DNA from: Bacteroidaceae bacterium | Lineage (GTDB): Bacteria > Bacteroidota > Bacteroidia > Bacteroidales > Bacteroidaceae | DNA length: 49,933 nucleotides | Assembly (NCBI GenBank): GCA_017483605.1 | Contig: JAFUWG010000002.1 | Coordinates: 1 to 49,933 of the forward strand | Direction: 5' to 3' | Shown: positions 3,146-44,909 of the stretch, one piece after another | Position numbering within the stretch: position 1 is the stretch's first letter | Layout: every line of letters begins with the position of its first letter | Program-made: the position numbers and the translations under genes | Notes under the pieces: model-generated | The model's database searches: none | What the model saw: the letters and a program-made list of their open reading frames with translations, nothing else | What the model was told of the DNA's origin: nothing

Positions 3146-3298
3146 ATGGACAAGAAATTTTATGAAACACCAGAGATTGAATTGGTGGAATGCGTATCTG
3201 AAGGCTATCTTGTGTCGGCTTCCGACTTGGAAGGTGGCGGCGTCGATCCCGATATGGGTGGCGGCAAAACTGATGAGCCAGACCCAGATCTCTGGTAA
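3146..3298 (+). CDS. Short acidic peptide, KKFYETP-leader family, copy 1
   Basis: 50-aa ORF starting MDKKFYETPEIELVE and ending in a Gly/Asp-rich tail. It belongs to the same family as the 55-aa ORF at 44742-44909 (first nine residues identical) and the 43-aa ORF at 28942-29073 (KFYEAPELEV). All three have a basic/aromatic start, an alternating acidic-hydrophobic segment, a hydrophobic patch, then an AS(D/G) motif (SASD here, residues 24-27) and a low-complexity acidic C-terminus. This leader/core layout resembles ribosomally made precursor peptides. It sits 95 nt downstream of the LRR gene and is probably co-transcribed. Function unknown; a RiPP-type precursor or secreted peptide is inferred from layout only. 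Confidence 0.7.
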   Translation: MDKKFYETPEIELVECVSEGYLVSASDLEGGGVDPDMGGGKTDEPDPDLW

Positions 3299-3373
3299 AA
3301 ACATACCGCTCACTCTGTGGCTCATGGGAAGTTCAAGAGACATCCTTTGGCCAAGTAAATAAAAGAAGATTCG

Positions 3374-3403
3374 GGGGTACAAGCATACATGTGTTTGTAC
3401 CCC
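3374..3403 (+). terminator. Hairpin after peptide gene (terminator-like)
   Basis: GGGGTACAA pairs with TTGTACCCC (9 bp) downstream of the LRR-peptide pair and just before the ATPase gene. The U-tract is weak, so termination may be partial. Confidence 0.45.
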
Positions 3404-3456
3404 TGAATTATACAGATAACTCAGACTATTACTTCCTAAAACAAAAAGAATAGACC

Positions 3457-4929
3457 ATGAACTTAAAAGTGCATATACATAAAATCAAATGTGTCAACGA
3501 TTTAGATTTGGAACTACCTCTTGAACATGGACTGTATGCTATTACAGGCATGAATGGCTCTGGAAAAAGCACGATTGCTGCATGTACATCTTCTGTATTC
3601 TTTAACATGAGGATGAATGAGTATTTCGGAACAACCGCTCCAGATTCCAGCATTTCTTTTGAACTGAATGGGGCAAAGAAGAAATGGCTCAAAGTTGACG
3701 GAGAACGTGGAAAGATATGGAAGGTGTTTTCAGAAGGTCATGTTGCAATTAAGGGATTCTTCGAAGGAAGTTTGATTTTTGGCAATAGATTTAAAGATAA
3801 CTCTTTTGAGAAGGTACTACGTTTGGAAAGGGTGAAAAACAGTCAACTGATTGAGGCAGATGACTTCATCCGTAAGAATTTGGGCAAAATTCTTAATGGC
3901 GATGAGAATTACTATGAAAAACTCTTTTATCTGAAAGACCAAAAGGAGTTTAAGGGTAAAATTTTCTTCTATGAAAAAGACGGGCATCGTGTCAGCCAAT
4001 TTCATATGTCAACAGGCGAGAATTTGCTCATAAGCATTCTCAATTCTCTGCTAATGAGGATAAACAACCGAAATGAATTGGACGTTCCATGTTTAGTTTT
4101 CCTTGATGAAATAGAATTGGCGTTACATCCATCCTCTCTAAAACGCCTTGTACAATTTCTGGAGGATATGTCTTCGCAATATAATTATGCCATCTATTTC
4201 TCAACACATTCCTTGGAACTCATTGGTGGCATACCTCCCACCAATATTATATATATAAACCGGCATGCAGATAATACCATAGAAATTGTCAATCCTTGCT
4301 ACCCTGCCTATGCGACACGAATGCTGTATGACCATACTGGTTATGATAATGTAATCATGGTTGAGGATGATTTGGCGAAAGCCATTGTGGATCAAATTTT
4401 GAAAAGAGAAAAATTGCTGAACGGCAAACTTGTTCATGTATTACCATGTGGAGGATGGTCGAACGTGGTGGATTTGGCACAAGACACCATTAGATTCAAT
4501 TTAATGGGCAAAATTACTTCTATCTGCGCGATTCTTGACGGAGACGTGAAGTCGCAACTGGAAGGATATAAAAAGAATAAAGGTATCACAAACAATATCA
4601 GAATAGGTTTTCTGCCAATAGAGAGCCTTGAGAAATATCTTAAAAGAGTCCTTTTCGTTCATGTCGATCAGAAATTTTTTCGTCAACTGAACGATTATCT
4701 TTTCCAGCAGAAGAGTTTGAGTGAAATCATAGAGGAATACAGAGTTTCCATTCAAGGGAAAACCGATAACGACGGGAAAAAACTCTTTGCCCTTATTAGC
4801 GAAGAATTAAAAGAACGCAGAATAAGCAGAGACCAATTGGTGAACATGACAGTTGAACACATTGTTGAAAACCAACAAGAAGATGTCAACAAAATTATTG
4901 CTTTCCTTAAAGATGTATTGAGTGTTTGA
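3457..4929 (+). CDS. OLD-like AAA ATPase with Toprim-like C-terminus
   Basis: 490 aa. Residues 1-~270 are an ABC-type AAA ATPase: Walker A GMNGSGKS at 31-38, a degenerate signature region around STGEN (~187), Walker B LVFLDEIELALHP (~214-226) and a switch histidine in YFSTHSLELI (~249-258). Residues ~300-490 begin with VMVED-like acidic residues (IMVEDDLAKAIVD, ~302) and an LDGD motif (~364), the acidic pattern of Toprim nucleases in OLD-family proteins. These proteins usually act on DNA and many are phage-defence effectors, alone or with a partner. The convergent DUF3800 gene may be a neighbour only. The gene looks more AT-rich than the housekeeping core, consistent with transfer. Exact substrate unknown. 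Confidence 0.75.
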   Translation: MNLKVHIHKIKCVNDLDLELPLEHGLYAITGMNGSGKSTIAACTSSVFFNMRMNEYFGTTAPDSSISFELNGAKKKWLKVDGERGKIWKVFSEGHVAIKGFFEGSLIFGNRFKDNSFEKVLRLERVKNSQLIEADDFIRKNLGKILNGDENYYEKLFYLKDQKEFKGKIFFYEKDGHRVSQFHMSTGENLLISILNSLLMRINNRNELDVPCLVFLDEIELALHPSSLKRLVQFLEDMSSQYNYAIYFSTHSLELIGGIPPTNIIYINRHADNTIEIVNPCYPAYATRMLYDHTGYDNVIMVEDDLAKAIVDQILKREKLLNGKLVHVLPCGGWSNVVDLAQDTIRFNLMGKITSICAILDGDVKSQLEGYKKNKGITNNIRIGFLPIESLEKYLKRVLFVHVDQKFFRQLNDYLFQQKSLSEIIEEYRVSIQGKTDNDGKKLFALISEELKERRISRDQLVNMTVEHIVENQQEDVNKIIAFLKDVLSV

Positions 4930-4957
4930 TGAGAAATGGTACGTTCAGGGCAATGAA

Positions 4958-4987
4958 AGCGGGCGCACTCATGAAAGTGTGCCCGCT
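4958..4987. terminator. Strong hairpin between convergent genes (bidirectional terminator)
   Basis: AGCGGGCGCACT pairs over 12 bp (one G-T) with AGTGTGCCCGCT around CATGAA. It lies between the convergent stops of the ATPase and DUF3800 genes, with T-rich sequence downstream on the plus strand. Confidence 0.7.
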
Positions 4988-5030
4988 CTGTTTGTAAGTT
5001 TTCTTTTATTGGGAATTGAATGTGCGGTTG

Positions 5031-5684
5031 TTAGAAGAAAAGTTTCTTTGAGTCTATGACACTTTTGAGTATCTGGTAAGGCTCAGAATTTCGGTCTTCG
5101 TAGTTGCCCCATATCAGATTGTTCATCCAGTCGATAAAAATGAGGTTCTGGACTTTCTTGCTGTCGGAGGGAATATCTACAACCCGTGTTTTGGAGTTCA
5201 TGTCGAACCAAAGAGTGGTTTGGAGGTAGTCGATGAGGCTGTTGCCCGACTTCACCTTCACCGTCTTGTTGTCACGGATGAGATTGACCAGAGGCTCGTT
5301 CCTGATGGTGTCGAGTATCGCCAACTTAATCATGTAGTTGTATAGTTTATTGGAGTCTTCCCTGATGTGTTGAGCGACTTTGTTCTTATTGACCGTGATG
5401 GAACCTATTTTGATATCGGGATTCATGCTGACGAGTTTGGTCACCAAAGTGGCAAAGAACTTCTTGTCTTCCACCCTCAAGGCACTCCCTTTCAACTCTA
5501 TCTTTGGGTCTGTCTTTGTTTTTGTATAGACCTTGCGGACAATGCGTTTCAGCAAGTGCTTTTTCTCTGGTGGGCATACCACATAGGCAATCGTCATGTA
5601 ACGGCTTGAACCGCCATGCCGATAAGGCTTGTTGAGCATCCACCCCAAATCGCCACTCTCGTCCAGATAGATATTTGTTGACAT
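5031..5684 (-). CDS. DUF3800 domain protein
   Basis: 217 aa beginning MSTNIYLDESGDLGW. The YLDESG(D) N-terminal motif is the hallmark of the DUF3800 family, predicted to have an RNase H-like fold with metal-binding acidic residues. A later acidic residue in FIDWMNN (~188) could complete the site. Family members are often found near mobile elements and defence genes and their activity is not settled. The gene is monocistronic, with its own promoter at 5783-5813 and a 5' leader of roughly 90 nt. Confidence 0.75.
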   Translation of the reverse strand: MSTNIYLDESGDLGWMLNKPYRHGGSSRYMTIAYVVCPPEKKHLLKRIVRKVYTKTKTDPKIELKGSALRVEDKKFFATLVTKLVSMNPDIKIGSITVNKNKVAQHIREDSNKLYNYMIKLAILDTIRNEPLVNLIRDNKTVKVKSGNSLIDYLQTTLWFDMNSKTRVVDIPSDSKKVQNLIFIDWMNNLIWGNYEDRNSEPYQILKSVIDSKKLFF

Positions 5685-19691: not shown

Positions 19692-20474
19692 TTATTGTTT
19701 CTCTGTCATGTATTTCCAGTAGCGGCGTGGCATGTCTTTCAGTTGCTTCCGCGGATTCATGCGTTCACGAATGCAGATAGCCTTGAAATACGTCCGCCAC
19801 AACTCCTGAAACACTTTCTCATTCTCGCTCAGCAAGTCGTCACGCAGTTTTCCGCTATCGAGGTCGAACGGAAGGGAATCCTCCTGCAGAAAAGTGATGC
19901 GAGTCACCTCCTGCTGGTCATAGTAGAACCCGTAGCGACGTTTGGCATCATAGATGAGCCACGGCTGGTCGCCGAAGCGGTCGCGGAAATGGGCAACCGT
20001 CAGAGGCAGCACATCGTGGTCGGGAGAGACGACACCCAGATAGGTTCCATCCTTTGCCTTCTGAAAACGAAGGAACTGCAACATCCGATGCTGCTCGTAG
20101 ATGACCTTCCTGCCAATATTCGTCACCGCCAGCACATCGGGGTCTGATAAGTTCCTTTCTATGCTCGTTCGTCCTTCGGGTTGGCGAAACACCTTGCAGA
20201 TATAATGAAACAGCGGCGTGTCCAACTCTGGCAACTCCGACAAATAACTGACCATCAGTAATTTGACCGCTTGCCGCGAAAGGCGTTTCTCCAATCCTGC
20301 CCACACTCGTCCGGCACGGTCATCCGATGTCACCACCTCATGCACTTCCTCGCAGAACAGCAGCAACGGCTCTCCCTTCCCCACCAGCATCTCTGGCTGC
20401 TGACGAAGCGAGAAAGCATCAAAGACAGCAGACAGCAGTCCGTCCAATGTCCTATCGAATGTATAGACAAGCAT
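19692..20474 (-). CDS. DUF4130 protein, partner of radical SAM enzyme
   Basis: 260 aa matching the TIGR03915/DUF4130 family (start MLVYTFDRTLDGLLSAVFDA, FRQPEGRTSIERNL-like middle, ending RNMPRRYWKYMTEKQ-like as KDMPRRYWKYMTEK). In Bacteroidetes and other bacteria it is paired with the TIGR03916 radical SAM protein and annotated as a putative DNA repair or modification pair. Its start overlaps the upstream gene's stop in TAATG, so translation is coupled. Chemistry not established. Confidence 0.85.
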   Translation of the reverse strand: MLVYTFDRTLDGLLSAVFDAFSLRQQPEMLVGKGEPLLLFCEEVHEVVTSDDRAGRVWAGLEKRLSRQAVKLLMVSYLSELPELDTPLFHYICKVFRQPEGRTSIERNLSDPDVLAVTNIGRKVIYEQHRMLQFLRFQKAKDGTYLGVVSPDHDVLPLTVAHFRDRFGDQPWLIYDAKRRYGFYYDQQEVTRITFLQEDSLPFDLDSGKLRDDLLSENEKVFQELWRTYFKAICIRERMNPRKQLKDMPRRYWKYMTEKQ

Positions 20475-21784
20475 TACTCATTCCCTCCCGATTCTTCATT
20501 CAAAAACTCCAGCGTCAACTGCATTTCCTCCGCCGCCTTCTTCTGCTGTGCCTTCGACACCAGCAGCGGCTTCAGCCGTTCGGGATGCAGTTCGTTGATG
20601 CCCACAATGGGGTTCGCATACCCATCCGTCAACTCGTGGCAAGTGATGAAATACTTCGCCTTCTTCATCACCACACCCATCTTCTTCAGATGATAAGACG
20701 TGATGCGGTTGAACCGTCGGGAGTTCACAATCAGCGTCGCAGACCTCACGCCGATGCCCGGCACACGCAGAATCCGCTCGTACTCATCCCGATTGATGTC
20801 CACCGGAAACTGCTCCGGATGCCGCAACGCCCACGCCAGTTTCGGGTCCACCTCCAAGTCGAGGTTCGCATTCGCCTCGTCCACAATCTCCTCCACCTTA
20901 AACTGATAAAACCGCATCAGCCAATCCGCCTGATACAGACGGTTCTCACGCACCAACGGCGGCTGTTTCAGCACCGGCAGACGAGGGTCGTAAGTGTTCA
21001 CGCTCACATAGCCCGAGTAATACACACGCCGCATCGTCGGTTGACCATACAGCGCCGACGACATGTGCAGGATGTCCCTGTCCGTCTCCGCTGTCGCCCC
21101 CACAATCATCTGCGTGCTCTGCCCTGCCGGCACAAACCTCGGCACATGTCTCAACCGCTTCCTGTCCTCCTTATTCTCCAGCACACCCTGCTGAATGAAC
21201 CGCATCGGCTGGAACACACTCTGATGGTCCTTCTCCGGTGCCAGCAACTTCAGCGACTCCTCCTTCGGAATCTCAATGTTCACACTCATACGGTCGGCAT
21301 ACCGCCCCGCCTCACTCATCAACTCCCGACTCGCCCCAGGAATGCTCTTCAGATGGATATACCCGTTGAACCGATGCACCGTCCGCAAGTCACGGGCAAT
21401 CGCCACCAACCGTTCCATTGTGTAATCAGGGTTCCGCACCACACCGCTGCTCAAAAACAGCCCCTCGATGTAGTTCCGCCTATAGAACTCCATCACAATC
21501 TCCTCCAACTCATGCACCGCCAGCGTCGCCCGTCGGATGTCGTTGCTCCGCCTGTTCACACAATACGCACAATCATACATGCAGTAATTCGTCAGCATCA
21601 CCTTCAGCAGCGAGATGCACCGCCCATCGTCAGCAAACGAATGACAGATGCCCACGCCCCCCACCGTGTTACCCACCATGCCCTGCTTACCACCACGCAC
21701 AGTGCCACTCGACGAACACGACACATCGTACTTCGCCGACTCCGCCAATATCTGCAACTTCTCTATGGTCTTTTCCGTCAACAT
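20474..21784 (-). CDS. Putative DNA modification/repair radical SAM protein
   Basis: 436 aa. Cluster-binding CMYDCAYC motif (CxxxCxxC, ~68-75) preceded by the family segment KYDVSCSSSG (~17-26). The C-terminal part has a helix-hairpin-helix element (ILRVPGIGVRSATLI, ~341-355) suggesting DNA binding. Known TIGR03916 proteins are predicted DNA modification or repair enzymes, always with the DUF4130 partner, as here. The ATG at 21784 is chosen because the -7 box at 21832-21825 lies inside the longer ORF. Confidence 0.85.
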   Translation of the reverse strand: MLTEKTIEKLQILAESAKYDVSCSSSGTVRGGKQGMVGNTVGGVGICHSFADDGRCISLLKVMLTNYCMYDCAYCVNRRSNDIRRATLAVHELEEIVMEFYRRNYIEGLFLSSGVVRNPDYTMERLVAIARDLRTVHRFNGYIHLKSIPGASRELMSEAGRYADRMSVNIEIPKEESLKLLAPEKDHQSVFQPMRFIQQGVLENKEDRKRLRHVPRFVPAGQSTQMIVGATAETDRDILHMSSALYGQPTMRRVYYSGYVSVNTYDPRLPVLKQPPLVRENRLYQADWLMRFYQFKVEEIVDEANANLDLEVDPKLAWALRHPEQFPVDINRDEYERILRVPGIGVRSATLIVNSRRFNRITSYHLKKMGVVMKKAKYFITCHELTDGYANPIVGINELHPERLKPLLVSKAQQKKAAEEMQLTLEFLNEESGGNE

Positions 21785-21824
21785 CCTCTGAAAAACAATA
21801 AGCGATACTTCCCGAAATTTTTTG

Positions 21825-21832
21825 CAAAGGTA
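21825..21832 (-). promoter_or_regulatory. -7 box (TACCTTTG) of radical SAM/DUF4130 operon
   Basis: Minus-strand TACCTTTGC lies 41 nt before the ATG at 21784 and matches TAnnTTTG; the -33 box is weak. Confidence 0.55.
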
Positions 21833-22153
21833 ATCAAAATAAACGAGAAACACGCCATTTTTCCGCGAACAATTTTTTGTTACTTTAATTGTTACTCACG
21901 CTGATACTTTTTCCCACAAAATCACCTCAAAACGCCCAAACAACCAAACACCCATCTTTCTATCCGTTTTCACGCTTTTGCCTCATGATTGCCAACCAAC
22001 AGACCTGCAATTCCGACCATTCGAACACTTTTCGTCCCTCTTTTCCCTCTTTTTTCTTGTGTCAAATGAGGTTCTTCGTCCAAACACCCTCCCCAACACC
22101 TCACACAACTCCCTCTCGCCTCCTACGAGCAAAGAAGCAGGAAAGGTGTTCAC

Positions 22154-28941: not shown

Positions 28942-29073
28942 ATGGAAAAGAAAGAATTGAAATTCTATGAGGCTCCTGAATTGGAGGTGCTCATGATGAA
29001 TGTCGAAGGCTTCTTCTGTGCAAGCGGCGACCCTGAAAACGTCGATGGTGAGGAGATGCTTCCAGAGCAGTAA
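28942..29073 (+). CDS. Short acidic peptide, KFYEAP-leader family, copy 2
   Basis: 43 aa starting MEKKELKFYEAPELEV, with a hydrophobic GFF patch, then CASGDP (residues 26-31) and an acidic tail. Clearly related to the ORFs at 3146 and 44742, but with a three-residue insertion in the leader and the only Cys of the three at the AS motif. It is the first gene after the shared upstream element and is followed after 37 nt by the 1031-aa lipoprotein, so probably co-transcribed. Function unknown; precursor-peptide-like. Confidence 0.7.
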   Translation: MEKKELKFYEAPELEVLMMNVEGFFCASGDPENVDGEEMLPEQ

Positions 29074-29110: not shown

Positions 29111-32100
29111 ATGAAAGTATTTTTCAAATTAGCGTCAGCAGCTCTCGCAGTTCTTGCTTTGGCAAGTTGCTCAAGTGATGACCTGCTCGGCGATGCTGGC
29201 ATTAAGCTCAGCAACAAAAACACGCTCAACATCACCGTTGAGGACATGGGCACTGAAACGCTTAACACCCGTACAGCCTATACCAAAACAAATAAGCGTA
29301 TTTGGGAGGATGGCGTAGACGCATTCACTGTCTATACCAACGAGGTGATTGGTAAGTACGACTACTATGTGTATGATGCAGCTGCAGGAACCTCTGGAAC
29401 AGGTGCATTTGTACTTGAGACGGGTACCAACAAAGATGTTGATGACCCTGAATTCGTGGCTTTCCCAAAGAGTGAGATTAATACAACTAAGTGGGACAAG
29501 GCAACAGGTTCTGCCACTATCCAGTGGAAAATTCCTAACACCATTACTTATGGTGAAATCTCTGGTAGCGATCCAGTCGCTTATCTCAGCAACCTTCCTA
29601 TGTGGGGTACAGCAGAGGCCAATGGCGATGACATTGATGCCAAAGTGTATTTCTTGACCGCTTTCATCAAGGTCTATCTGACCAATGCTTTCAGCAATGC
29701 AACAAATGTTCGTGTACGTGCATATAGCGATATTGCTGGCACAAGCCCAGTTAACATCTCTGGTTATGCTAATGCTGTATTGTCTGAAAACAATGTGGCA
29801 AAGTCTGCAAGTGAAGTTCAGTTGACCACCCCTACAGAAGGTGCTGCTGCCGGCATTTATCAGCCAAAAAATGAAATTGTCGTAAATCTTCCAGCTGTTG
29901 CGACAGATATCTCAAGCGAGGCTGTCATTTTCATCCCTATCATTGCTGGACACTATGGAAATGTACAGGTAGAATACTCTAATGACAACGGAACTTCCTA
30001 TACTCAAATCAACGAGTATCTTGACCAAACATTTGTTCGTGCTACTCCTTACGGTGCTAACAATAGTAAGAAATGGGACATCACAAGTTCAACTGTAAGT
30101 GGTATCAACACCGCATTGGCTTCAAAGGTAGATGCATCTGAGACAAGTGCGACTATCCAGTGGACTGGTTCTGACGGTATTGATGTTGACGTGAACACTA
30201 TCACCATCCCTGCGATGACAAACTTGACAGACCTTACTCTTGATATCAACAAGTATGCTCACGCATCTTCTACACCTCTGAACGTAACAGGTGATTATGC
30301 AGGTAAGGTTACTCTGAAGACAGCAGCATTCACTACAAATGTAAATGTTCTCAACATCAACTTGCCAAAGGCACAGGTTGTCATTGCTGGTACGAATACA
30401 TCTGCTACAGCCATCAATGTGACTAATGCCAGCAAGTTGTTTATCGGTGATGGTTCGACCGTAACCAATATTGCTACAGCCTTTAATGGTACTGTTCCTG
30501 CTGAAGTGGGTGACATCTCTATTTTGGCTAAAGCCACGATTGGCAATTTGACTCTCGCAACTAATCACAAGACCCAGACAGTGAGCGTTGCTGGTACTGC
30601 TGGTGACATCATTGTTCCAACTTCAAAACTTGCTACAGGCGTGGCTGTGAACGTTGCTGGTACTGCTGGTGACATTACCGTCAATGGTGCAACAAACGAT
30701 GCTGCTATTGAAGTTTCGGGTATTGCAAAGAGCATCTCCACACAAGGTACAGGTGCTGTTACTCTCTCTGGTTTTGCAGCCTCCATCGCTAATGTCGGTG
30801 GTGATGTGACCATCAGTGGAGCACCTAACTACAAGACTGCTGCGGCAAGAAGTATAACTGGCGGTGTAGACTATGCCAAGGTGGCTACCGTTACTACAAG
30901 TGGAAACGTTACTGTGGCTCTCAATGCAGAAGGTGCTGCTGTCGGTACTTCTTTGACGATGAATGCTGCAGGCAAGACTCTTACTCTGACTCAGGGTTAT
31001 GTAAAGAGTGTCGCCGTTCCTACAAGTGGTTCTAATGTAACGATTGCACTGGGTACTGACACGAACTACAAGAATCTTATTATCGGAAGTGGCACCAAGT
31101 ATGCCGTGACTGGTGAAACGAAGTGGAATGGTAACAAGATTGGCGATGGTATTCCTGTTGCTGCAGGAACAGATGTTCCAGATGCTGCCACAAAGACTAC
31201 AATCACAACAGATTGGCAGGGCTACAAAGAACCTGCGACAGCAGTCTATACAGCCACAGGTCTGGCAGAAAATCCTGGCACATTCACGCTCAAGAACAAT
31301 ATTGACTTGAACAATCAGCCTTGGAGCCCAGTTGCTCAAACTGCTGCTGTTGATGGTGGTGGTAAGACTATCCGCAACTTGACAGTGAAAGCAGAAGTAG
31401 ACGGAAGCACCGTGGCTCGCGATGCCGGTCGTGGTCTCTTCACTACTATTGGCTGTAATGTGTCGAATCTGACTCTGAGCGGTGTTACAATCAATGCAAC
31501 TGCATATAAGGTTAATACTGACACTAAGACTTCAACAGTTGTCAACATCGGTGCTCTTGCAGGTAAGGCAACCGCAACTGTTGCACTTACAAAGGTGAAG
31601 GTTGAGAATGCTACTATCACTTCTACTCCTGGCAATGACGCCACAAATGGTGGTGGTGCCTACAACATTGGCGGTCTGATTGGTCAAGTAGGTAGTGGCT
31701 GTTCTCCATTGACACTGAGTGGCGTTACAGTTACCGGTTCGACAATCAGCGGTTACAAGTCTCTTGGTGGCTTCGTCGGAGATGCTAATGGCGACGTAAC
31801 TATCAAGACAGAAGGTTCGGGTACAGGTGCCGTGAAGAGTTCTGTAAGCGGTAACTCTTTCGTTGCCAACTACAACTCTGCAACTACAACGCCCGCTATT
31901 GATGTTGACTATCTGCGTGTAGGTAACTATATAGGTTCTGCAAGCACAGCAAAGACGATTGATATCACATGTGATGCTGCTCAAGTTTCAGCAACCCTGA
32001 CACAGGATATCACTATCTTCCCTGGCTACACGAAGTACAATGAAGGTGTGAACTTCTATGACTATATCTTCGGTCAGCACCTGATTGGTTTCTCTGGCAA

Positions 32101-32206
32101 CACAACGTTCACAACTGTTCCAACGATCAACACCAAGAGTTATCAACTTGCAACTTCTAAGCCAGACCCAGTTCCTGCAACTTATCTCTACTACATCAAT
32201 AAGTAA
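29111..32206 (+). CDS. Large surface lipoprotein, fimbrillin-like N-terminus and GLUG-like repeats
   Basis: 1031 aa. Signal peptide with lipobox LALASC (Cys 20) followed by SSDDLL, typical of surface-exposed Bacteroidetes lipoproteins. Residues ~35-330 resemble the N-terminal half of fimbrillin/Mfa-type proteins. The rest is Thr/Ala/Val/Gly-rich beta-solenoid-like sequence with a repeated VAGTAGDI word (~495 and ~520) and GLUG-like segments near 760-950 (NIGALAGKA, NIGGLIGQVG, LGGFVGDA). Probably an adhesin or surface-layer protein. Followed by a terminator. Confidence 0.75.
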   Translation: MKVFFKLASAALAVLALASCSSDDLLGDAGIKLSNKNTLNITVEDMGTETLNTRTAYTKTNKRIWEDGVDAFTVYTNEVIGKYDYYVYDAAAGTSGTGAFVLETGTNKDVDDPEFVAFPKSEINTTKWDKATGSATIQWKIPNTITYGEISGSDPVAYLSNLPMWGTAEANGDDIDAKVYFLTAFIKVYLTNAFSNATNVRVRAYSDIAGTSPVNISGYANAVLSENNVAKSASEVQLTTPTEGAAAGIYQPKNEIVVNLPAVATDISSEAVIFIPIIAGHYGNVQVEYSNDNGTSYTQINEYLDQTFVRATPYGANNSKKWDITSSTVSGINTALASKVDASETSATIQWTGSDGIDVDVNTITIPAMTNLTDLTLDINKYAHASSTPLNVTGDYAGKVTLKTAAFTTNVNVLNINLPKAQVVIAGTNTSATAINVTNASKLFIGDGSTVTNIATAFNGTVPAEVGDISILAKATIGNLTLATNHKTQTVSVAGTAGDIIVPTSKLATGVAVNVAGTAGDITVNGATNDAAIEVSGIAKSISTQGTGAVTLSGFAASIANVGGDVTISGAPNYKTAAARSITGGVDYAKVATVTTSGNVTVALNAEGAAVGTSLTMNAAGKTLTLTQGYVKSVAVPTSGSNVTIALGTDTNYKNLIIGSGTKYAVTGETKWNGNKIGDGIPVAAGTDVPDAATKTTITTDWQGYKEPATAVYTATGLAENPGTFTLKNNIDLNNQPWSPVAQTAAVDGGGKTIRNLTVKAEVDGSTVARDAGRGLFTTIGCNVSNLTLSGVTINATAYKVNTDTKTSTVVNIGALAGKATATVALTKVKVENATITSTPGNDATNGGGAYNIGGLIGQVGSGCSPLTLSGVTVTGSTISGYKSLGGFVGDANGDVTIKTEGSGTGAVKSSVSGNSFVANYNSATTTPAIDVDYLRVGNYIGSASTAKTIDITCDAAQVSATLTQDITIFPGYTKYNEGVNFYDYIFGQHLIGFSGNTTFTTVPTINTKSYQLATSKPDPVPATYLYYINK

Positions 32207-34702: not shown

Positions 34703-35677
34703 ATGACAAGGAAAAGAATACCATATAACAAATATGCGACGACCTATGATGAACAAATTCGTATCCTTCTTGGTCGTGGTATTGCCATTGCCGATGAGAA
34801 CAAAGCACGGGAGTGTCTTGCAGACATTGGCTACTATAGATTGGGATTTTACATTTTCCCTTTCGAGTTGACATATCCCCTGTTGGATCATCGCCGTAGT
34901 CATCATGTTCAACAAGGGACAACCATGGAAGATGTCGTTTCACTCTATTATTTCGACTTAGACCTAAGAAACATCCTCAACAGGTATTTGTCCCGGATTG
35001 AAGTGGCACTCCGTACAACATTTGTATATGAACTTTCCACTAAATATGCATCAGACCCATACTGGTTTGTCAATCCTCTAATTGTATCTGCACAGTTTAT
35101 TGCGGACTTTCCAGGAGCGGCATACAATGCTATCAAGAAGCGACCAACCATCAAACGACATCATCTGAAGTATGTGGGACAATATGCTCCTGCTTGGAAA
35201 ACGATGGAATATATGACCTTGGGCAATTTGGAGGTGCTCTACGATAGCCTGTTGTCAGATAAGGACAAACGTATTGTCAGCACTCATTTCGGAGAGCCTG
35301 CAATTGCGACATTCAAGAGTTATATGACCACTATCCGCGAGGTTCGGAATGCCTGTGCTCACGGCAATGTGTTGTTCGGGATGACGCTAACCTCTGGTAT
35401 TAGGGCTGGTGTGGCATGTCCTTCGTTCCCTGCACATACTCAACAAACCTTTCACGGCGCCCTCCGAGTGATTGACTATATGCTGAGTAAAGTATCTGCT
35501 AATCGGACTAACGACATGTGGGATGAAATCTATAAAGCGACGGCCGTACTATATGCCAAGTCCCCTACACTGAGAACACTGATAGAAGCACAAACGGGTA
35601 TAATATTGCCACAGAAATCGGACAAAAACGCATCTGTCCTCAAAAAAATATATAATGTAATAAGAAAAAATTGGTGA
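34703..35677 (+). CDS. Abi_2 (AbiD/AbiF-type) abortive-infection protein
   Basis: 324 aa. Abi_2 hallmarks: an N-terminal YDEQIRILLGRGI segment, LADIGYYRLGFYIFPFE (~47-63), then LDLRNILNRYLSRIEVALRTT (~88-108), where the Arg-rich helix belongs to the HEPN-type RNase fold of this family. A later RxxxxH-like motif occurs in REVRNACAHGN (~215-225, RNACAH). Family members are toxins that arrest growth after phage infection. Own promoter at 34621-34653. Intact reading frame. Confidence 0.8.
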   Translation: MTRKRIPYNKYATTYDEQIRILLGRGIAIADENKARECLADIGYYRLGFYIFPFELTYPLLDHRRSHHVQQGTTMEDVVSLYYFDLDLRNILNRYLSRIEVALRTTFVYELSTKYASDPYWFVNPLIVSAQFIADFPGAAYNAIKKRPTIKRHHLKYVGQYAPAWKTMEYMTLGNLEVLYDSLLSDKDKRIVSTHFGEPAIATFKSYMTTIREVRNACAHGNVLFGMTLTSGIRAGVACPSFPAHTQQTFHGALRVIDYMLSKVSANRTNDMWDEIYKATAVLYAKSPTLRTLIEAQTGIILPQKSDKNASVLKKIYNVIRKNW

Positions 35678-36118: not shown

Positions 36119-37021
36119 ATGAATAACAAAATTCCATTTCAAAAACCATACACCTGTGCACACGACCTTGTCTAGTTGCTGCAATCACGCGGTTTGACCG
36201 TTGCAGATACAGCCAAGGCTGAGAGTTATCTTGAATATATAGGCTATTATCGTCTGTCTGCCTATATGTATCCTCTGTTACAGATGCCCAAGGAACAGCA
36301 TCGTTACAAATCAAACGCCTCATTCGACCAGGTGATGATGCTCTATCGTTTCGACAAGAAGTTACGTCTGCTCATCTTCAACGAAATCGAAAAGATTGAA
36401 GTGGCAGTACGGAGTGCGATTGTCAATATTGGTTGCAACATGACAGGCAATCCTTTTTGGATGACCGATGGCAGCAATTTCATTGATGCAGGAAAATTCC
36501 TCCGTACAATGGACTTGATTGATGCAGAAATACACCGCTCACGCGAAGATTTCATTGTCCATTTCAAACAGACCTACTCAGACGCATATCCTCCTGCATG
36601 GATGTTGGCGGAGATTCTGCCCTTCGGTGTCATCACCAACATCTTCAGTAATATCAAGACTGCTCGCATCAAGAAAAGCATTGCACACAGATTCGGTTTG
36701 CAAGTGGCACCTTTCGAGTCGTGGCTTACTATCATCACCCTGACTCGCAACGCCTGCTGCCACCATGCCCGTATGTGGAACAAGCAGAATACTATCCGTC
36801 CGATGCTCCCCAATCGCATGGCGGGCAGTTGGATAACTCTACCTACAGATGCACTTCGCATTTATTTCAACCTTTGTATCATCAAGTATTTCTTGAACAT
36901 CATTTCTCCGAACAACGACATGAAGGCAAAAATTGATGTACTGTTGTCCACTTACCCATCCATTGACATAAACGCCATGGGGGTCCCCCGTGGATGGGAA
37001 ACGGAGCCTCTGTGGCAATAA
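36119..37021 (+). pseudogene. Abi_2-type gene with in-frame stop at codon 19
   Basis: The ATG at 36119 opens MNNKIPFQKPYTCAHDLV, then TAG (36173-36175), then the same frame continues for 281 codons with a full Abi_2 domain: LLQSRGLTVADTAKAESYLE, IGYYRLSAYMYPLL, DKKLRLLIFNEIEKIEVAVRS and a late RNACCHH segment. The residues before and after the stop join as one normal Abi_2 N-terminus, so this is one gene with a nonsense mutation (probably from AAG or CAG). A shorter product from a later start would lack the first helix. Promoter and leader look intact. Confidence 0.75.
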
Positions 37022-38025: not shown

Positions 38026-39213
38026 CTATGTGCGTGGTTTTTGGCGTTGGGCGAGGTGGTTTTGGTAGTGTTCGGCCAGGCTGTCGACGGCGTTGTCGCG
38101 GGCTTTGTCGACGATGGCGGCATAGATGGTGGTGGTTTGGATCTTGCGGTGACCGAGGAGTTTGGAGACGGTGTAGAGGTCGGCTCCTGCCATGAGTGCC
38201 ATGGTGGCACAACTGTGGCGTGCGGTGTGGAAGGTGACATGCTTGCTGATTCTTGCTTTTATCGCCCATTTTGCAATGGCACTTTCGATGGTGGGCAGAC
38301 TGGGCATTCTGAAAACGAAGTCTTCGGGGTCGCCCATGTGATCTGGAAGCCATCGAACGGCTTCGATGTTGAGTTTGTTGTTGATGGGTTCTTGTGTCTT
38401 TTGCATGATGATGGAGTAGCGATAGGTGTCGCCAGTCTTTTTGATGTCTTTCCATTGGAGTTTGCGAACGTCGCTGAGTCGCAAGCCTGTGAAGCAACTG
38501 AACATGAAACTGCGTTTGACTTGGTCGTTGTGGCAGTAGGAGTTGGCGAGTCTGCCTATCTCGTCGGCATCAAGATATTCTTTGATTACGACGGGGCGTT
38601 GTGGCATGTCGCTTTTCCTCATCCGCATGACGGGGTTGGCGATGATGGCTTGGTCTATCACGGCTTCGTTGAGGACGCTCTTGAAGGCACCGAAGTAGTG
38701 GTAGGCAGTGACGCCCGAGAGTGCTTTCCCCGCCTTGGTTCGGGCTTGCTTGAGGTGGTCGGCAAAGCCTTTGCAGAGGTCGAGGTCAACGTCTTTCATC
38801 TTGACGTATCGGGCTTTGGCACCGAGATAGGTGGCGAGGTGGTTGGACATGTTGCGACAGGCGTTGATGTAACTGTTGCCTCGATGGTTCTTTTGGCAGG
38901 CTTTCAGATGGTACTTCAGATACTCGAAGAGCCGCATTTTCGACTTGTCGTTGTTGAACGTGATGCCTGCCTGTCCGTTGGCTATCTCGATGATTCGTTT
39001 TGCCTTGATGGCATGGGCTGCCTGAAGGGTCTGCCTGTTCATGATTTTGGATTCGAGGTCGGTTTCGGGAATCAGGTAGAGTTTCAGAAATTCGTAGATT
39101 CGGCATCCGTTGTAGTAGATGTCGAGGTAGATGGACTGATTGCCGCTGACAAGTCTCTTGAATCGGATTTTGACCGGTTCTTTTCTTTTGGAGGGTTGAT
39201 TTACTTTTTCCAT
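38026..39213 (-). CDS. Tyrosine recombinase / integrase
   Basis: 395 aa. An N-terminal arm/core-binding region (~1-200; Bacteroidetes phage_int_SAM-type) is followed by the catalytic domain: Arg in TGLRLSDVRKL (~252), Lys region, HTARH (His-x-x-Arg, ~337-341), LLGHRKIQ with His (~361) and the nucleophile Tyr in TTTIYA (~371). Such enzymes drive integration of mobile elements or promoter/shufflon inversions in Bacteroidales. Start 39213 is chosen because the -7 box at 39233-39226 lies inside the longer ORF. Inverted copies of the structured repeat lie on both sides of a region it heads (37.6 and 44.5 kb). Confidence 0.88.
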   Translation of the reverse strand: MEKVNQPSKRKEPVKIRFKRLVSGNQSIYLDIYYNGCRIYEFLKLYLIPETDLESKIMNRQTLQAAHAIKAKRIIEIANGQAGITFNNDKSKMRLFEYLKYHLKACQKNHRGNSYINACRNMSNHLATYLGAKARYVKMKDVDLDLCKGFADHLKQARTKAGKALSGVTAYHYFGAFKSVLNEAVIDQAIIANPVMRMRKSDMPQRPVVIKEYLDADEIGRLANSYCHNDQVKRSFMFSCFTGLRLSDVRKLQWKDIKKTGDTYRYSIIMQKTQEPINNKLNIEAVRWLPDHMGDPEDFVFRMPSLPTIESAIAKWAIKARISKHVTFHTARHSCATMALMAGADLYTVSKLLGHRKIQTTTIYAAIVDKARDNAVDSLAEHYQNHLAQRQKPRT

Positions 39214-39225
39214 GATTTTTTTTGC

Positions 39226-39255
39226 CAAAGGTACGGAAAAATCCAACGAAACAAA
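39226..39255 (-). promoter_or_regulatory. Promoter of integrase gene
   Basis: Minus strand: TTTG (39255-39252), 18-bp spacer, TACCTTTG (39233-39226), directly before the ATG at 39213. Confidence 0.6.
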
Positions 39256-39355: not shown

Positions 39356-40213
39356 ATGAAGGATATATATTATAAGGTGGCAGGGCATGTGTTTGCTCTG
39401 TGTACAGATGGGCAGGAAAGTGTCGTCTGTGATTTGAGGCAGTATGAGCCGTTTGTGACTGAACCAACGGAACAATTGATTTTTAGGCTTAGAATTTCTG
39501 ACGAGAAGCCTTTAATGGTTGGTTTTCAGGAAGAAGTGAATCAGGAGGATGAGGGTCAGAGCATCGTTGCCGGCACGCTGGCGGGGCATCCCTGCTTCGA
39601 GTTTTGGCTGGGCAAGGTGCGTTCGGCGCTGCTGGTGGTTGCTGACGACTATCGGGATTGTGTGGTGTATGTCGAGGCCAACCGCATGTTTGGCATCAAC
39701 AATGCGCTGATGGTGCTGTATGCGTTGAGCACGGCTGACAAGCAGACGGCGTTGTTCCACTCGTCGGTGGTGAGTTACGAGGGCAAGGCATATATGTTTC
39801 TGGGCAGAAGCGGCACGGGCAAGAGTACGCACAGTGGCTTGTGGCTCAAGTATATAGAAGGAACGCAACTGGTGAATGACGACAACCCTGTGGTGCGTGT
39901 GGAAGACGGCAAGGTGACCGTGTACGGCTCGCCATGGAGCGGAAAGACTCCTTGTTATCGCAATGTGAGTTACCCCGTGGGGGCGATTGTGCGGCTGAGT
40001 CAGGCTCCTCACAACGAGATTCGACGCTTGAAAGGTGTGGCGGCATACGCTGCACTGGTGCCATCCATCTCTGGCAAGCGCTGGGACAAGCATCAAGCCG
40101 AGGGACTGCACGAGACGGAGAATCTGTTGGCACAGTATGCACGGGTGTTCCATCTGGACTGTCTGCCCGACGAGGACGCTGCAAGGGTGTGCTTTGGGGC
40201 TGTGGTAGAGTGA
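39356..40213 (+). CDS. HprK-like (PEP-carboxykinase-fold) kinase of a RiPP-type operon
   Basis: 285 aa. Residues ~100-270 carry the HprK/PEPCK P-loop fold: Walker A GRSGTGKST (150-158), an acidic stretch in LVNDDNP (~171-177) and GSPWSGKTP (~190-198). The N-terminal ~100 residues are a separate beta-rich domain. HprK-related kinases occur in lasso-peptide and other RiPP clusters next to PqqD proteins, where they modify the peptide. The gene is 34 nt upstream of a PqqD-like gene and followed by an ABC exporter, matching that setting. The start is fixed by the promoter at 39308-39338. Confidence 0.7.
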   Translation: MKDIYYKVAGHVFALCTDGQESVVCDLRQYEPFVTEPTEQLIFRLRISDEKPLMVGFQEEVNQEDEGQSIVAGTLAGHPCFEFWLGKVRSALLVVADDYRDCVVYVEANRMFGINNALMVLYALSTADKQTALFHSSVVSYEGKAYMFLGRSGTGKSTHSGLWLKYIEGTQLVNDDNPVVRVEDGKVTVYGSPWSGKTPCYRNVSYPVGAIVRLSQAPHNEIRRLKGVAAYAALVPSISGKRWDKHQAEGLHETENLLAQYARVFHLDCLPDEDAARVCFGAVVE

Positions 40214-40247: not shown

Positions 40248-40520
40248 ATGAAGATAAAGAAAGGATTTGTGCTGCGCGATGTGTGCGGCGAGAAAGTGAT
40301 TGTTGGTGAGTCGGTGGAGACCATCAACTTTAGCCAACTGATTAGTTTGAACTCGACGGCTGCATGGCTGTGGTGTACTGCCGAGGAGCAGGGCGACTTC
40401 ACGGTGGACAGCCTTGTGGACGCTCTCTGCAAGGAGTATGCGGTGGATCAGGAGAAGGCACATGCGGATGTGGCTCGCATCGTGGAGAAGTGGCTGGAGA
40501 TTGGCGTTGTGACAGCCTAA
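40248..40520 (+). CDS. PqqD-family peptide-binding protein (RRE)
   Basis: 90 aa with the PqqD-like winged-helix arrangement: an N-terminal beta-hairpin (LRDVCGEKVIVG), the LNSTAAWLW segment (~34-42) and a C-terminal helical half (DALCKEYAVD...VEKWLEIGVV). PqqD-type domains bind leader peptides of RiPP precursors and hand them to modifying enzymes. It lies between the HprK-like kinase and the ABC exporter. An upstream in-frame TTG (40221) is possible but less likely. The KKFYE peptides elsewhere in the window are candidate ligands by inference. Confidence 0.8.
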   Translation: MKIKKGFVLRDVCGEKVIVGESVETINFSQLISLNSTAAWLWCTAEEQGDFTVDSLVDALCKEYAVDQEKAHADVARIVEKWLEIGVVTA

Positions 40521-40554: not shown

Positions 40555-42189
40555 ATGAAATACGTCCTTTGGGTGTGGCGAAACATGGCGGGCATACGTT
40601 GGAACACCGTCGTGCGTATCGCCATAGGCATTTCACAAGTGTTGCTCGGTCTGCTGATGGTATGGCTGAGCAAACGCTTTATTGATGTGACCATTAGGAC
40701 GGGCGACGACAGCGACATCGTGAAGATGGTGCTGATGCTGGTCGCAACGGTGCTGGGCGGCATCCTGCTGCGCCAGGTTTATTACTATATGTCGACGGCG
40801 GCGAACACTCGACAGACGAATGCCATCCGCCTGCGCATCTTCAGCAACCTCTTCCGTCGGCAGATGTACGAAGAGAAGTTGCATTCGGGCGACATCACCT
40901 CGAGGCTGGAGAAAGACCTTGATGCCATTGCCGATGTGACAACGTCGTCGTTCCCTCAGTTTGTGATTATGACGTTCCAGATGCTGGGTGCGTTCTTCCT
41001 GATGAAGTCGATGGACGCACGTCTGGCATGGGCTTTGTTGTTGCTCACGCCGTTGTTCTTGGTGTTTGGCAAGGTCTTGGCACATAAACTGAAGAACATG
41101 ACGATGGACATCCGCCAGCAGGAGAGTCTGATTCAGATGCTGGTGCAGGAGGGCATGGAGCACAACGAGGTGTTGCGTTCGTTGGAGAGCGAAGACTGGG
41201 TGACGGATCGTCTGGACGAGATGCAACGCAGGCTGAAAGGCAAAGTGCTGAAACGCACACGCTTCACGGCGATGACCCGCATCTTGCTGGCATCGAGTTT
41301 CAGTATGGGCTATCTTTTGGCATTCATCTGGGGCGGTCTGCAGTTGCGGGACGGCGTCATCACGTTCGGTGTGATGACTTCTTTCTTGCAGTTGGTCAGC
41401 CAGTTGCAGCATCCGATTCTGAATCTCCTCAACATGATTCCGCAGTTCATCCATGCATCAGCCAGCATCACCCGTCTGCAGGAACTGGAAGATGCCGGCA
41501 AGGAGGCGTTGGCAAACCGCTCGACGGAGATGCTGGACGGGCAGGTCGGCGTGAAGGTGACGGGGCTGCACTTCAGTTATGCTACTGGCGACCGATTGAT
41601 TTTCAATAACTTCTCTCAAGACTTCCGCCCTGGCAGCAAGACGGCACTCATGGGGCAGACGGGGGCAGGAAAAACGACCCTCTTCCGCCTGATGTTGGGT
41701 TTGGCAGAGCCGGAGCGTGGCAGCGTGGAAGTCTATAATCAAAAAAAGAGCGTTGGCGTTTCTGCCAACACTCGTTCCAACTTTGTTTTCGTTCCGCAGG
41801 GCAACACACTGATGAGCGGAACGGTGCGTTATAACTTGCTGCTTGCCAATCCGATGGCAACCGATGAGGAACTGACGAAGGTACTGCACACCGCGATGGC
41901 AGACTTCGTGTTCGACCAACCCAACGGTCTGGACACCGAACTGGGCGAACGAGGCATCGGCCTGAGCGAAGGGCAAGCCCAGCGTATCGCCATTGCCCGA
42001 GGTCTTTTGCGTCCCGGCAGCGTCTTGTTGCTGGACGAAATCAGTTCTTCGCTCGACGGACAGACCGAACGTCAGTTGTTTGAACATCTGTTCAGAGACT
42101 ATCCCGACAAGACCATGATTTTCATCACCCACCGCACCGAAGTGTGCAAACTGTGTGATGAGGTAATCAGCCTTACTCCATCTACTTAA
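40555..42189 (+). CDS. ABC exporter (fused TMD-NBD), peptide-export type
   Basis: 544 aa. The N-terminal ~300 residues have six predicted TM helices of an exporter; the C-terminal nucleotide-binding domain has Walker A GQTGAGKTT (367-375), LSEGQAQ signature (470-476), Walker B VLLLDE (~490) and the ITHR switch histidine. No N-terminal C39 peptidase domain is present, so any leader peptide must be cut elsewhere. Last gene of the kinase-PqqD-ABC operon (34-nt gap); export of a small modified peptide is the likely role. Its stop overlaps the convergent esterase stop by 8 nt. Confidence 0.85.
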   Translation: MKYVLWVWRNMAGIRWNTVVRIAIGISQVLLGLLMVWLSKRFIDVTIRTGDDSDIVKMVLMLVATVLGGILLRQVYYYMSTAANTRQTNAIRLRIFSNLFRRQMYEEKLHSGDITSRLEKDLDAIADVTTSSFPQFVIMTFQMLGAFFLMKSMDARLAWALLLLTPLFLVFGKVLAHKLKNMTMDIRQQESLIQMLVQEGMEHNEVLRSLESEDWVTDRLDEMQRRLKGKVLKRTRFTAMTRILLASSFSMGYLLAFIWGGLQLRDGVITFGVMTSFLQLVSQLQHPILNLLNMIPQFIHASASITRLQELEDAGKEALANRSTEMLDGQVGVKVTGLHFSYATGDRLIFNNFSQDFRPGSKTALMGQTGAGKTTLFRLMLGLAEPERGSVEVYNQKKSVGVSANTRSNFVFVPQGNTLMSGTVRYNLLLANPMATDEELTKVLHTAMADFVFDQPNGLDTELGERGIGLSEGQAQRIAIARGLLRPGSVLLLDEISSSLDGQTERQLFEHLFRDYPDKTMIFITHRTEVCKLCDEVISLTPST

Positions 42190-43075: not shown

Positions 43076-43118
43076 AGTTTTTTATCCCGAAAAACTGTGT
43101 GTCTTCGCAAACTTTTTG

Positions 43119-43126: not shown

Positions 43127-43160
43127 TCCGAAAAATCATCTTTTAATACCCTAAAATAGT

Positions 43161-44135
43161 ATGGATTCTCAGAAACCTTATGTAATTGGTGTGGACCTCG
43201 GCGGTACCAACACCGTGTTCGGAATCGTCGATGCTCGTGGCAGCATCGTGGCAGAAGATTCCATCAAGACTCAAGCATACAAGACTGCGGAAGAGTTTGT
43301 GGAGGCTGGCGTCACATGCCTCACGCCTCTCATTGCCCAAGTGGGCGGCATCGGCAACATCGCTGGCATGGGCATTGGTGCCCCCAATGGAAACTACTAC
43401 AGCGGCACCATCGAATATGCCCCCAACCTCTCTTGGGCTCACGAGGGTATCGTGCCGCTGGCACAGATGTTCTCCGACAAACTCGACGGCCTGTCCGTTC
43501 GCCTGACCAACGACGCCAATGCCGCTGCTATGGGCGAAATGGCATACGGAGCCGCACGTGGCATGAAGAATTTCATTGTCATCACCCTCGGAACAGGAGT
43601 CGGCTCGGGCATTGTGGTGAACGGTCAACTGCTCTATGGACACGACGGCTTTGCGGGCGAACTCGGTCACGTCATCATGGAACGTGGGTCGAAAGGTCGT
43701 CTTTGTGGCTGTGGACGCACAGGCTGTCTGGAGGCATACTGCTCCGCAACGGGTGTGGCTCGCACGGCACGTGAAATCCTTGCCAACAGCGAACGTCCCT
43801 CACTGCTTCGTGACAAGCCCGCCGACCAACTGGAGTCGCTCGACGTCTCCATCGCTGCAGGCAAGGGCGACGAAGTGGCAAACGAAATCTTCCAGTTCAC
43901 AGGCAAGATGCTCGGCGAGGCATGTGCCGACTTTGCCGCCTTCTCCTCCCCCGAAGCCTTCATCTTCTTCGGCGGTCTCTGCAAGGCAGGCGACCTCATC
44001 ATGAAGCCCATCGAAGAATCCTACAACAATGCCGTCCTCAAAATCTTCAAGGGCAAGGCAAAATTCCTCGTCAGCGGCCTCATGAACGCCAACGCCGCCG
44101 TCCTCGGAGCCTCCGCCCTGGGTTGGGAAGAATGA
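43161..44135 (+). CDS. glk: ROK-family sugar kinase (glucokinase-like)
   Basis: 324 aa. ATP-binding GVDLGGTNT (~10-18), sugar-binding NDANAAA (~115-121), TLGTGVGSG (~137-145) and the ROK zinc motif CGCGRTGC(L)E (~185-194). It phosphorylates glucose or a related hexose for glycolysis. Monocistronic, with promoter at 43119 and terminator at 44294-44333. Glucokinase is the likely reading; a fructokinase or N-acetylhexosamine kinase is the alternative. Confidence 0.88.
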   Translation: MDSQKPYVIGVDLGGTNTVFGIVDARGSIVAEDSIKTQAYKTAEEFVEAGVTCLTPLIAQVGGIGNIAGMGIGAPNGNYYSGTIEYAPNLSWAHEGIVPLAQMFSDKLDGLSVRLTNDANAAAMGEMAYGAARGMKNFIVITLGTGVGSGIVVNGQLLYGHDGFAGELGHVIMERGSKGRLCGCGRTGCLEAYCSATGVARTAREILANSERPSLLRDKPADQLESLDVSIAAGKGDEVANEIFQFTGKMLGEACADFAAFSSPEAFIFFGGLCKAGDLIMKPIEESYNNAVLKIFKGKAKFLVSGLMNANAAVLGASALGWEE

Positions 44136-44293
44136 TGGATTTCACATAAATTTATCCAAAATCTGTCATTAGAATTGATGGCATAAAATTTATGATAATT
44201 CATGGTAATTCGTGTTCTATTTCAACATAAATTGTCATGAATTAACCATAAATTATTCACAAATTATTTTTAATGACCAATTCGAGTTTATAG

Positions 44294-44333
44294 ACGGGAG
44301 GGCTGCACGAACATTGCAGCCCTCCCGTCTTTC
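44294..44333 (+). terminator. Terminator of ROK kinase gene
   Basis: ACGGGAGGGCTGCA pairs fully with TGCAGCCCTCCCGT around CGAACAT, followed by CTTTCCTTTT. Lies 158 nt after the stop. Confidence 0.8.
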
Positions 44334-44334
44334 C

Positions 44335-44645
44335 TTTTCTCTCCCCTGCGTCCAGCAGTTTTCCCGCAGGCTCCCCCTTCCCCCCTTTTTCTTCTTCCTC
44401 CCTTCTCTCCCTCTGGTTCTCTATGCAGCGATGTCATCGCTGCCCCCTCTCTTCCTCCCATTATCCTCCCTTTCCCTTCTTTCCCCCTCCTTCCTCCATC
44501 CCCCGTTCAAAGCGGTGTTTCCGCTTTGCCTCCCTTAAAACCAAACTTAAATTTTATAAAATTCAAGTTAGATTTATATAAATTCAAGTTCAATTTTCAT
44601 AAATTTAAGTTTAATTTTATAAAATCCAACTTTAGTTTTAAGAAC
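44335..44645 (-). repeat. Structured AT/purine repeat element, copy 3 (inverted)
   Basis: Same blocks as copies 1 and 2, on the opposite strand: AT-rich block (44533-44645), the CAAAGCGG hairpin (~44510-44530), purine tract read as pyrimidines here, and the second hairpin GCAGCGAT-GAC-ATCGCTGC near 44423-44441. Non-coding. Opposite orientation to copy 2 across the integrase-to-glucokinase segment. Confidence 0.8.
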
Positions 44646-44675
44646 ATCCCACAAAATCATCAGGAGGGAAGGAAA

Positions 44676-44711
44676 AAGAAATGGGGGCACGGCTTGAATG
44701 TCCGTGCCCCC
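44676..44711 (-). terminator. Terminator downstream of peptide gene 3
   Basis: GGGGGCACGG pairs with CCGTGCCCCC (10 bp) and is followed on the minus strand by a T-rich run (ATTTCTTTTTCC). Confidence 0.7.
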
Positions 44712-44741
44712 GATTTTTCATCTGTTGATATCACTATCTGA

Positions 44742-44909
44742 TTAAAAGTCATCATACCAACCGCTATTGCCAGTATTCGTATTCTGGCTTCCTGCGTCAC
44801 CGTCGCCGCCAGGGATGTCTTCCAATGGGTCTGAAGCAGCAAGAATGACGGCAGATTCGAGGAGTTCGATTACCTCCATGTCCGGAGTTTCATAAAATTT
44901 CTTGTCCAT
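44742..44909 (-). CDS. Short acidic peptide, KKFYETP-leader family, copy 3
   Basis: 55 aa starting MDKKFYETPDMEVIE, with a hydrophobic patch, then AASDP (24-28), and a Gly/Asp/Asn-rich tail ending WYDDF. Its first nine residues equal those of the 3146 ORF. It is 98 nt downstream of the LRR gene at 45008, past the same perfect hairpin. Nearest of the three to the kinase-PqqD-ABC operon (2.5 kb). Function unknown; precursor-peptide-like layout. Confidence 0.7.
   Translation of the reverse strand: MDKKFYETPDMEVIELLESAVILAASDPLEDIPGGDGDAGSQNTNTGNSGWYDDF

Follow-up and report, generated by a model that had tools for sequence, protein, structure and literature searches.

Small proteins beside surface-protein genes of a Bacteroidaceae genome as probable RRE-guided precursor peptides

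Three short open reading frames (ORFs) on contig JAFUWG010000002.1 of a Bacteroidaceae bacterium (assembly GCA_017483605.1), each next to a gene for a large surface protein, raise the question of what their products do. The stretch analysed, referred to here as the window, is the whole contig of 49,933 nucleotides (G000:C10, G000 being the bacterium's own genome; other G and L numbers designate the genomes and loci compared). The small ORFs are probably ribosomally made precursors, each with a leader that would be bound by a recognition element (RRE) for ribosomally synthesized and post-translationally modified peptides (RiPPs) and an acidic tail that would be exported, served by enzymes acting in trans. 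Observed are a family of such ORFs with codon-level conservation, its gene neighbours, a cassette of candidate enzymes, clusters in other genomes, and likeness in sequence and fold to known leader–RRE pairs.

Three small ORFs and their partner genes

3146..3298, plus strand: precursor-like peptide 1 (P0001), 50 aa, MDKKFYETPEIELVECVSEGYLVSASDLEGGGVDPDMGGGKTDEPDPDLW; ORF read from the sequence and by own-genome search
28942..29073, plus strand: precursor-like peptide 2 (P0002), 43 aa, MEKKELKFYEAPELEVL..GFFCASGDPENVDGEEMLPEQ; relatives at L006 and L008 in the own genome
44742..44909, minus strand: precursor-like peptide 3 (P0003), 55 aa, MDKKFYETPDMEVIELLESAVILAASDPLED..GWYDDF
348..3050, plus strand: BspA-type leucine-rich repeat (LRR) protein with a C-terminal tail like those of the type IX secretion system (T9SS) (..GAIYNLQGIRV..KNGKKYLQK), partner upstream of peptide 1; PF13306, E=1.6e-28
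45008..48883, minus strand: BspA-type LRR protein with the same tail as the 348..3050 product, partner upstream of peptide 3; PF13306, E=5.2e-33
29111..32206, plus strand: lipoprotein, judged by its start MKVFFKLASAALAVLALASC, downstream of peptide 2; no Pfam family above cut-off
3095..3119, plus strand: GC hairpin between LRR gene and peptide 1, read from the sequence
44938..44962, minus strand: GC hairpin like that at 3095..3119, between LRR gene and peptide 3, read from the sequence

An earlier note had listed ORFs at these positions. The two on the plus strand read as it stated, and at 44742-44909 the minus strand alone has an open frame. All three share the features that the note described, namely an FYE[TA]P leader, a patch of hydrophobic residues and an AS[DG] motif; KKFYE[TA]P stands near the start of P0001 and P0003, with LKFYEAP as the variant in P0002. 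An acidic tail follows in each, Gly-rich in P0001, Gly/Asn-rich in P0003 and short in P0002. A surface gene does lie within about 100 nt of every ORF: P0001 starts 95 nt past LRR ORF 348-3050, P0003 starts 98 nt past LRR ORF 45008-48883 (minus strand), and P0002 ends 37 nt before lipoprotein ORF 29111-32206. The common 5' sequence holds for one pair, the upstream 110 nt of P0001 and P0003 being 91% identical and containing the GTGCAGGGA..TCCCTGCAC GC hairpin, whereas the upstream region of P0002 is 50% identical to that of P0001 and 86% to that of L006, another lipoprotein-linked member. The window ORFs that lie downstream of a surface gene are followed by hairpins resembling terminators, and none of P0001–P0003 has a Pfam or NCBIfam match at E ≤ 1.

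Similar LRR-gene/peptide units lie at both window ends (1-3298 and 44742-49933), which makes repeats the probable cause of the assembly break. Peptides of genome G007, too, are in several cases found at contig ends.

Extent and conservation of the peptide family

Searching the own genome with P0001 gave 12 places at E ≤ 10. Profile A1 gave 18 at the same threshold, some of them false (one belongs to a frame of 258 aa), and a broad profile found 18 ORFs above 9 bits among the gathered own-genome loci; the family has about 18 members there. Its leader consensus is KKxYxxPx[ML]E[VI]. Matches at E ≤ 1 were obtained in 25 of 41 genomes, the own included, and in 21 of the 24 of the same genus, bearing out the expectation that the leader is conserved elsewhere. 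Together with the selection described below, these counts exceed what chance would give. Across 198 genomes of the order (taken as Bacteroidales), profile A6 (29 columns) has matches at E ≤ 1 in 71, many by chance; a threshold of E ≤ 0.01 together with a small open frame leaves 14 peptide-positive genomes, G164 having been removed because its match sits in a 376-aa frame.

A set of 85 distinct peptides was defined by a score of at least 15 bits; two or three are doubtful (L231, L283), and L254 is truncated where its contig stops. A Ser lies 17–23 residues past the Tyr in 82 of the 85 (at +19 in 43 and +20 in 31, counting in the order 20, 19, 21 and so on), preceded by residues that are mostly hydrophobic and then small. 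Tails range from 9 to 51 residues, with a median of 24 and a median net charge of −5 in the 85-peptide set. They are net negative in 80 of 82 peptides (97.6%) versus 13.6% of other small [YF]xxP ORFs, and a Trp occurs among the last three residues in 27 of 82 versus 6.8%. The tails had been described as divergent; their character is in fact kept across the family.

For 12 hand-chosen pairs, of which two are identical and some paralogous, nonsynonymous/synonymous ratios were pooled; the leader gives 0.25 and the tail 0.35. From these low ratios we infer that family members are translated, selected proteins under purifying selection, and that the tail is not hypervariable as a rule. One G007 paralog pair is 99% identical over upstream region and leader and 68% over the tails, a pattern suggestive of gene conversion in the 5' portion. 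The G007 paralogs L248, L249, L250 and L251 likewise have nearly identical upstream and leader regions and differing tails, some tail ends being common across paralogs, and gene conversion is likely. No earlier description of the family was found in the literature searched, bioRxiv and most subscription papers lying outside its coverage.

Genes for surface proteins beside the peptides

A tail-bearing or lipoprotein gene stands beside 66 of the 85 distinct peptides, which together with the leader in other genomes gives genomic support to the earlier idea of a precursor-like family tied to surface-protein genes. Of the remaining peptides, 18 have neighbours of other kinds and one is cut by a contig end. 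The same association would fit unmodified small accessory proteins of the neighbouring surface proteins, such as cytoplasmic escorts or regulators, the RRE-leader likeness then being coincidental; purifying selection on the tails as well as the leaders is also consistent with such a role, which is taken up again below.

In the larger class, 42 of 85 peptides follow a gene whose product has a T9SS-like tail and start no more than 140 nt past it (tail profile above 10 bits; tail consensus G.WY.L.G......KGIYI.NGKKV.IK). Because so many follow such genes, and SprA is present in the own genome, the peptides might be cargo-specific type IX secretion helpers. However, genomes G032, G130 and G214 keep peptides without a SprA match, on which ground dependence on T9SS was rejected; 24 members instead precede a gene with a lipoprotein-like start, ending no more than 140 nt before it; and in the own genome, where the tail has 63 matches at E ≤ 1, only 12 of the 45 tail genes looked at have a peptide. 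A helper role is accordingly very unlikely. The T9SS type A domain TIGR04183 matches the neighbour tails faintly (1 of 20, at E 0.015).

For the 24 lipoprotein-linked members the ORF stands closely before the gene, with offsets of −19 to +76 and 21 of the 24 between 16 and 58, a layout that a regulatory leader ORF (attenuator) could have. That attenuators explain the family is nevertheless hardly credible: the larger class (42 of 85) lies downstream of its surface gene, its members in the window are followed by terminator-like hairpins, and conservation is at the amino-acid level. The candidate was rejected by position relative to the surface gene.

A candidate enzyme cassette

The YxxP leader resembles that of lasso peptides, and RiPP enzymes were therefore tested for. 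The window holds three adjoining genes of interest.

39356..40213, plus strand: HprK-like kinase, P-loop SGTGKSTH, proposed modifying enzyme; TIGR04352 E=7.7e-5, below its cut-off
40248..40520, plus strand: PqqD-type RRE, proposed leader-binding protein; profile match and structure model
40555..42189, plus strand: ABC exporter, proposed exporter; PF00664 and PF00005, no C39 domain

A structure model of the kinase matches PEPCK (E 4e-7) and HprK/P (E 3e-5) in Foldseek, and its NCBIfam HprK_rel_A match is only below cut-off. MsbA models are among the many ABC models matched, below cut-off, by 40555-42189. PqqD/RRE proteins score over cut-off in 20 of 25 genomes; the own genome has two copies, one in the window and one on contig C6, where HprK, a signal-peptidase-like ORF and the RRE lie in a row. 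The middle ORF was recognised only by its G.SM.P motif and its position between HprK and RRE.

TbiB1 and TfuB1 are the nearest structures to the model of the window RRE. The RRE residues Asn35 and Asp74, invariant in 43 of 43 sequences, were aligned here with those that hold Pro and Tyr in LppB of the linear polyphosphorylated peptide (LPP) pathway, as given in the accessible part of PMC13381572. The best PDB match of the RRE profile is TfuB1 (6jx3_B, E 3.6e-4), and the only PDB match of the peptide profile at E ≤ 10 is the lasso leader TfuA (6jx3_A, E 0.63, 10 residues). These are two chains of one leader–RRE co-crystal, and the pairing of the two profiles on them argues against accessory proteins with a chance leader likeness.

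A tyrosine integrase gene with an Arm-DNA-binding domain (38026-39246, minus strand) lies directly upstream of the HprK/RRE/ABC cassette and diverges from it. Integrase-like genes, identified by reading, stand beside a cassette in L066 and beside a peptide in L035. The C6 HprK/protease/RRE cassette (L065:7119-11479) adjoins clostripain-like and RpoD-like genes, named by reading with no family search.

Peptides and enzymes across genomes

Among 80 named RRE loci, HprK is present in 76, and 71 of those contain an ORF with the signal-peptidase motif. The clearest physical link to a peptide is in G042, where a gene run reads peptide, HprK, signal-peptidase-like ORF, RRE, NTP_transf_5 (PF14907, E 3.9e-33) and ABC. 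Profile A5, which was made without any G042 sequence, gives this peptide 21.1 bits. TIGR02228 matches the signal-peptidase-like ORFs of G042 (E 1.8e-8), G016 (1e-7) and G076 (2e-6), in all cases below cut-off.

Five more genomes carry distant look-alikes: in G109, G177, G194 and G195 a YxxP peptide has an RRE-like ORF on one side and HprK on the other, and in G097 one stands just before HprK, with a signal-peptidase-like ORF following each; RRE and protease were named there by motif or alignment, not family search. Together with the clear member in the G042 RRE/HprK/signal-peptidase cluster, these five lend weight to the precursor-like reading first proposed for the window ORFs. The Ser is at Tyr+20 in four of the six cluster peptides, at +18 in G042, and replaced by Thr in G177. 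A profile of the five distant peptides tells the 85 family members apart from 1293 other YxxP-like ORFs with an area under the curve of 0.95 and places 50 of the 85 above the background's 99th percentile. Judged by profile score, the bridge from the family to these distant peptides is G042 with intermediates such as the G104 peptide (41.5 bits). A post-hoc rule for cluster peptides, written after the examples had been seen and missing G194, picks out 5 ORFs in the HprK loci (104.7 kb), compared with 1 in 1.17 Mb of background sequence and 0.2 in shuffled sequence.

HprK (profile A7, E ≤ 1e-10) is found in 13 of 14 peptide-positive versus 15 of 184 other genomes (Fisher 6e-12). A7 holds sequences from five peptide-positive genomes, without which the count is 8 of 9 (Fisher 1e-7); A6 holds peptides from ten, picked before HprK was examined. 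Of 18 genomes selected as peptide-positive, 17 contain the RRE (16 of 17 once G164 is dropped), and so do both peptide-negative genomes tested, G080 and G172, the latter within what reads like a lasso locus. A family member of G013 (L337:6000-8040), its tail rich in Cys, stands opposite an RRE and a radical SAM/SPASM maturase (TIGR04463, E 7e-40, below cut-off); perhaps the same leader type is used there by another RiPP chemistry.

Weighing the evidence and a proposed mechanism

A number of observations weigh against the precursor reading. None of the 80 named RRE loci, with flanks of up to 8 kb, contains a family peptide, and the cassette in the window showed no protease ORF on reading. The RRE Asn is replaced in 2 of 15 RREs, and 2 of the 12 peptide pairs have relaxed ratios (L248/L251, leader 0.98 and tail 0.70; L019/L264, tail 0.96). 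With A6, the peptides of G109, G177, G194, G195 and G097 score 14.1, 4.4, 0.5, 2.9 and 5.3 bits. In the opposite direction, the five-peptide profile gives the window peptides only 2.3, 2.0 and −1.1 bits, values equalled or exceeded by 23, 26 and 224 of the 1293 background ORFs. The HprK co-occurrence is uncorrected for phylogeny, and the genomes are not phylogenetically independent. Individual genomes also depart from the pattern: G173 has one peptide match (E 1e-5) and no RRE or HprK, G014 (83% complete) has five matches at E ≤ 1 and no RRE found, and G098 and G187 have HprK and RRE and no peptide at E ≤ 0.1.

The empty RRE loci and the low window scores are what accessory proteins would lead one to expect. 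Against these stand the clear family member that heads the G042 cluster and the co-occurrence of peptides with HprK, as well as the TfuA/TfuB1 pairing, and the accessory-protein explanation is on balance unlikely. A cis link of RRE and peptide was rejected for the lineages of the 80 named loci; with none of them holding a peptide, the connection in the window lineage can only be in trans.

In the precursor reading, the N-terminal ~25 residues (KKxYxxPx[ML]E[VI]..) would form a leader bound by a discrete PqqD-like RRE, either that at 40248-40520 or the C6 copy. The HprK-like kinase at 39356-40213 would be the modifying enzyme, and the ABC exporter at 40555-42189 would carry out the acidic tail of 9–51 residues. 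Their genes are scattered in this lineage, mostly next to one for a surface protein, and the enzymes, encoded elsewhere, would act in trans. Binding, phosphorylation, cleavage site, export and any surface role are steps that we infer. It is possible, though rather doubtful, that the whole forms a distributed RiPP-like system in which one trans-acting enzyme set (RRE, HprK-like kinase, signal-peptidase-like protease and exporter) matures about 18 precursors, most of them tied to one adhesin or lipoprotein gene, and a gene-specific phosphorylated acidic peptide is displayed with each linked surface protein.

If the precursor reading is true, many-copy small proteins that lack a Pfam or NCBIfam model would be a class of RiPP precursors, and a pathway stated to be Bacillota-restricted in the accessible part of PMC13381572 would reach a second phylum. 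The coupling of precursors to surface-protein genes would be a strong hint at the role of the LPP pathway, and concrete enzymes, a phospho-Ser site and masses would be predicted.

Other features of the window

An abiF RNA (Rfam RF03085, 36068-36104) lies just before an Abi_2 gene (36176-37021), and a second Abi_2 gene (34703-35677) ends about 0.5 kb upstream of that gene; both are abortive-infection-type modules. A radical SAM protein adjoins a DUF4130 protein at 19692-21853 (minus strand).

Comparison with known systems

The lasso pairs TfuA/TfuB1 (6jx3) and TbiA/TbiB1 (5v1u) have the same YxxP leader and the same RRE fold. The peptides here differ in their acidic tails, and no macrolactam (asparagine-synthase-like) cyclase was noted in the clusters read, a genome-wide cyclase search not having been made. 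The B2 transglutaminase-like leader peptidase scores over cut-off in 2 of 25 genomes, neither of the same genus. All 16 genomes of the genus, the own among them, lack a match above cut-off, and the own has a single one below it (E 2.4e-4); lasso membership was rejected on this ground.

The GG-motif/C39 precursors of Bacteroidales (PMC10352776, as far as its accessible part goes) are likewise small and carry a conserved leader. By comparison, the peptides here are without a double-Gly leader and without an NCBIfam or Pfam match. Export by the C39/GG route was rejected, C39 scoring over cut-off in 5 of 25 genomes with no match in the own genome. More broadly, RRE-containing clusters are among the horizontally moved ones in gut genomes, according to the accessible part of PMC12806405, in which these peptides do not appear.

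The peptides most likely work like RRE-guided precursors of the LPP type. LPPs, encoded by lppA-K-B-S-D-N of Paenibacillus alginolyticus, were described in 2026 as Bacillota-restricted, with the leader consensus YxxPxVLxHQxIxFETxxS (PMC13381572; this comparison draws on the accessible part of that paper). A discrete RRE, an HprK-like kinase and an ABC exporter are shared with LPP and all found in the window; the archaeal-type signal peptidase I has candidate counterparts in signal-peptidase-like ORFs at C6 and in other genomes, and the NTP transferase is seen in other genomes. Both leaders contain YxxP, with the Ser at Tyr+18 in the LPP consensus versus mostly +19 or +20 here. Unlike that consensus, the leader here has YxxPx[hydrophobic] and a downstream Ser without HQ and FET, which counts, like the points gathered above, against the reading; the host is not a member of the Bacillota, and phosphorylation is here presumed. 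An in-cluster precursor, as in LPP, is present in G042, G097, G109, G177, G194 and G195 and in none of the 80 loci related to the window. Since the window lineage lacks both the leader consensus and an in-cluster precursor, the peptides are not filed as LPPs. Its precursors are numerous and scattered, most of them next to a surface-protein gene, and this wiring to surface-protein genes is what sets them apart from LPP.

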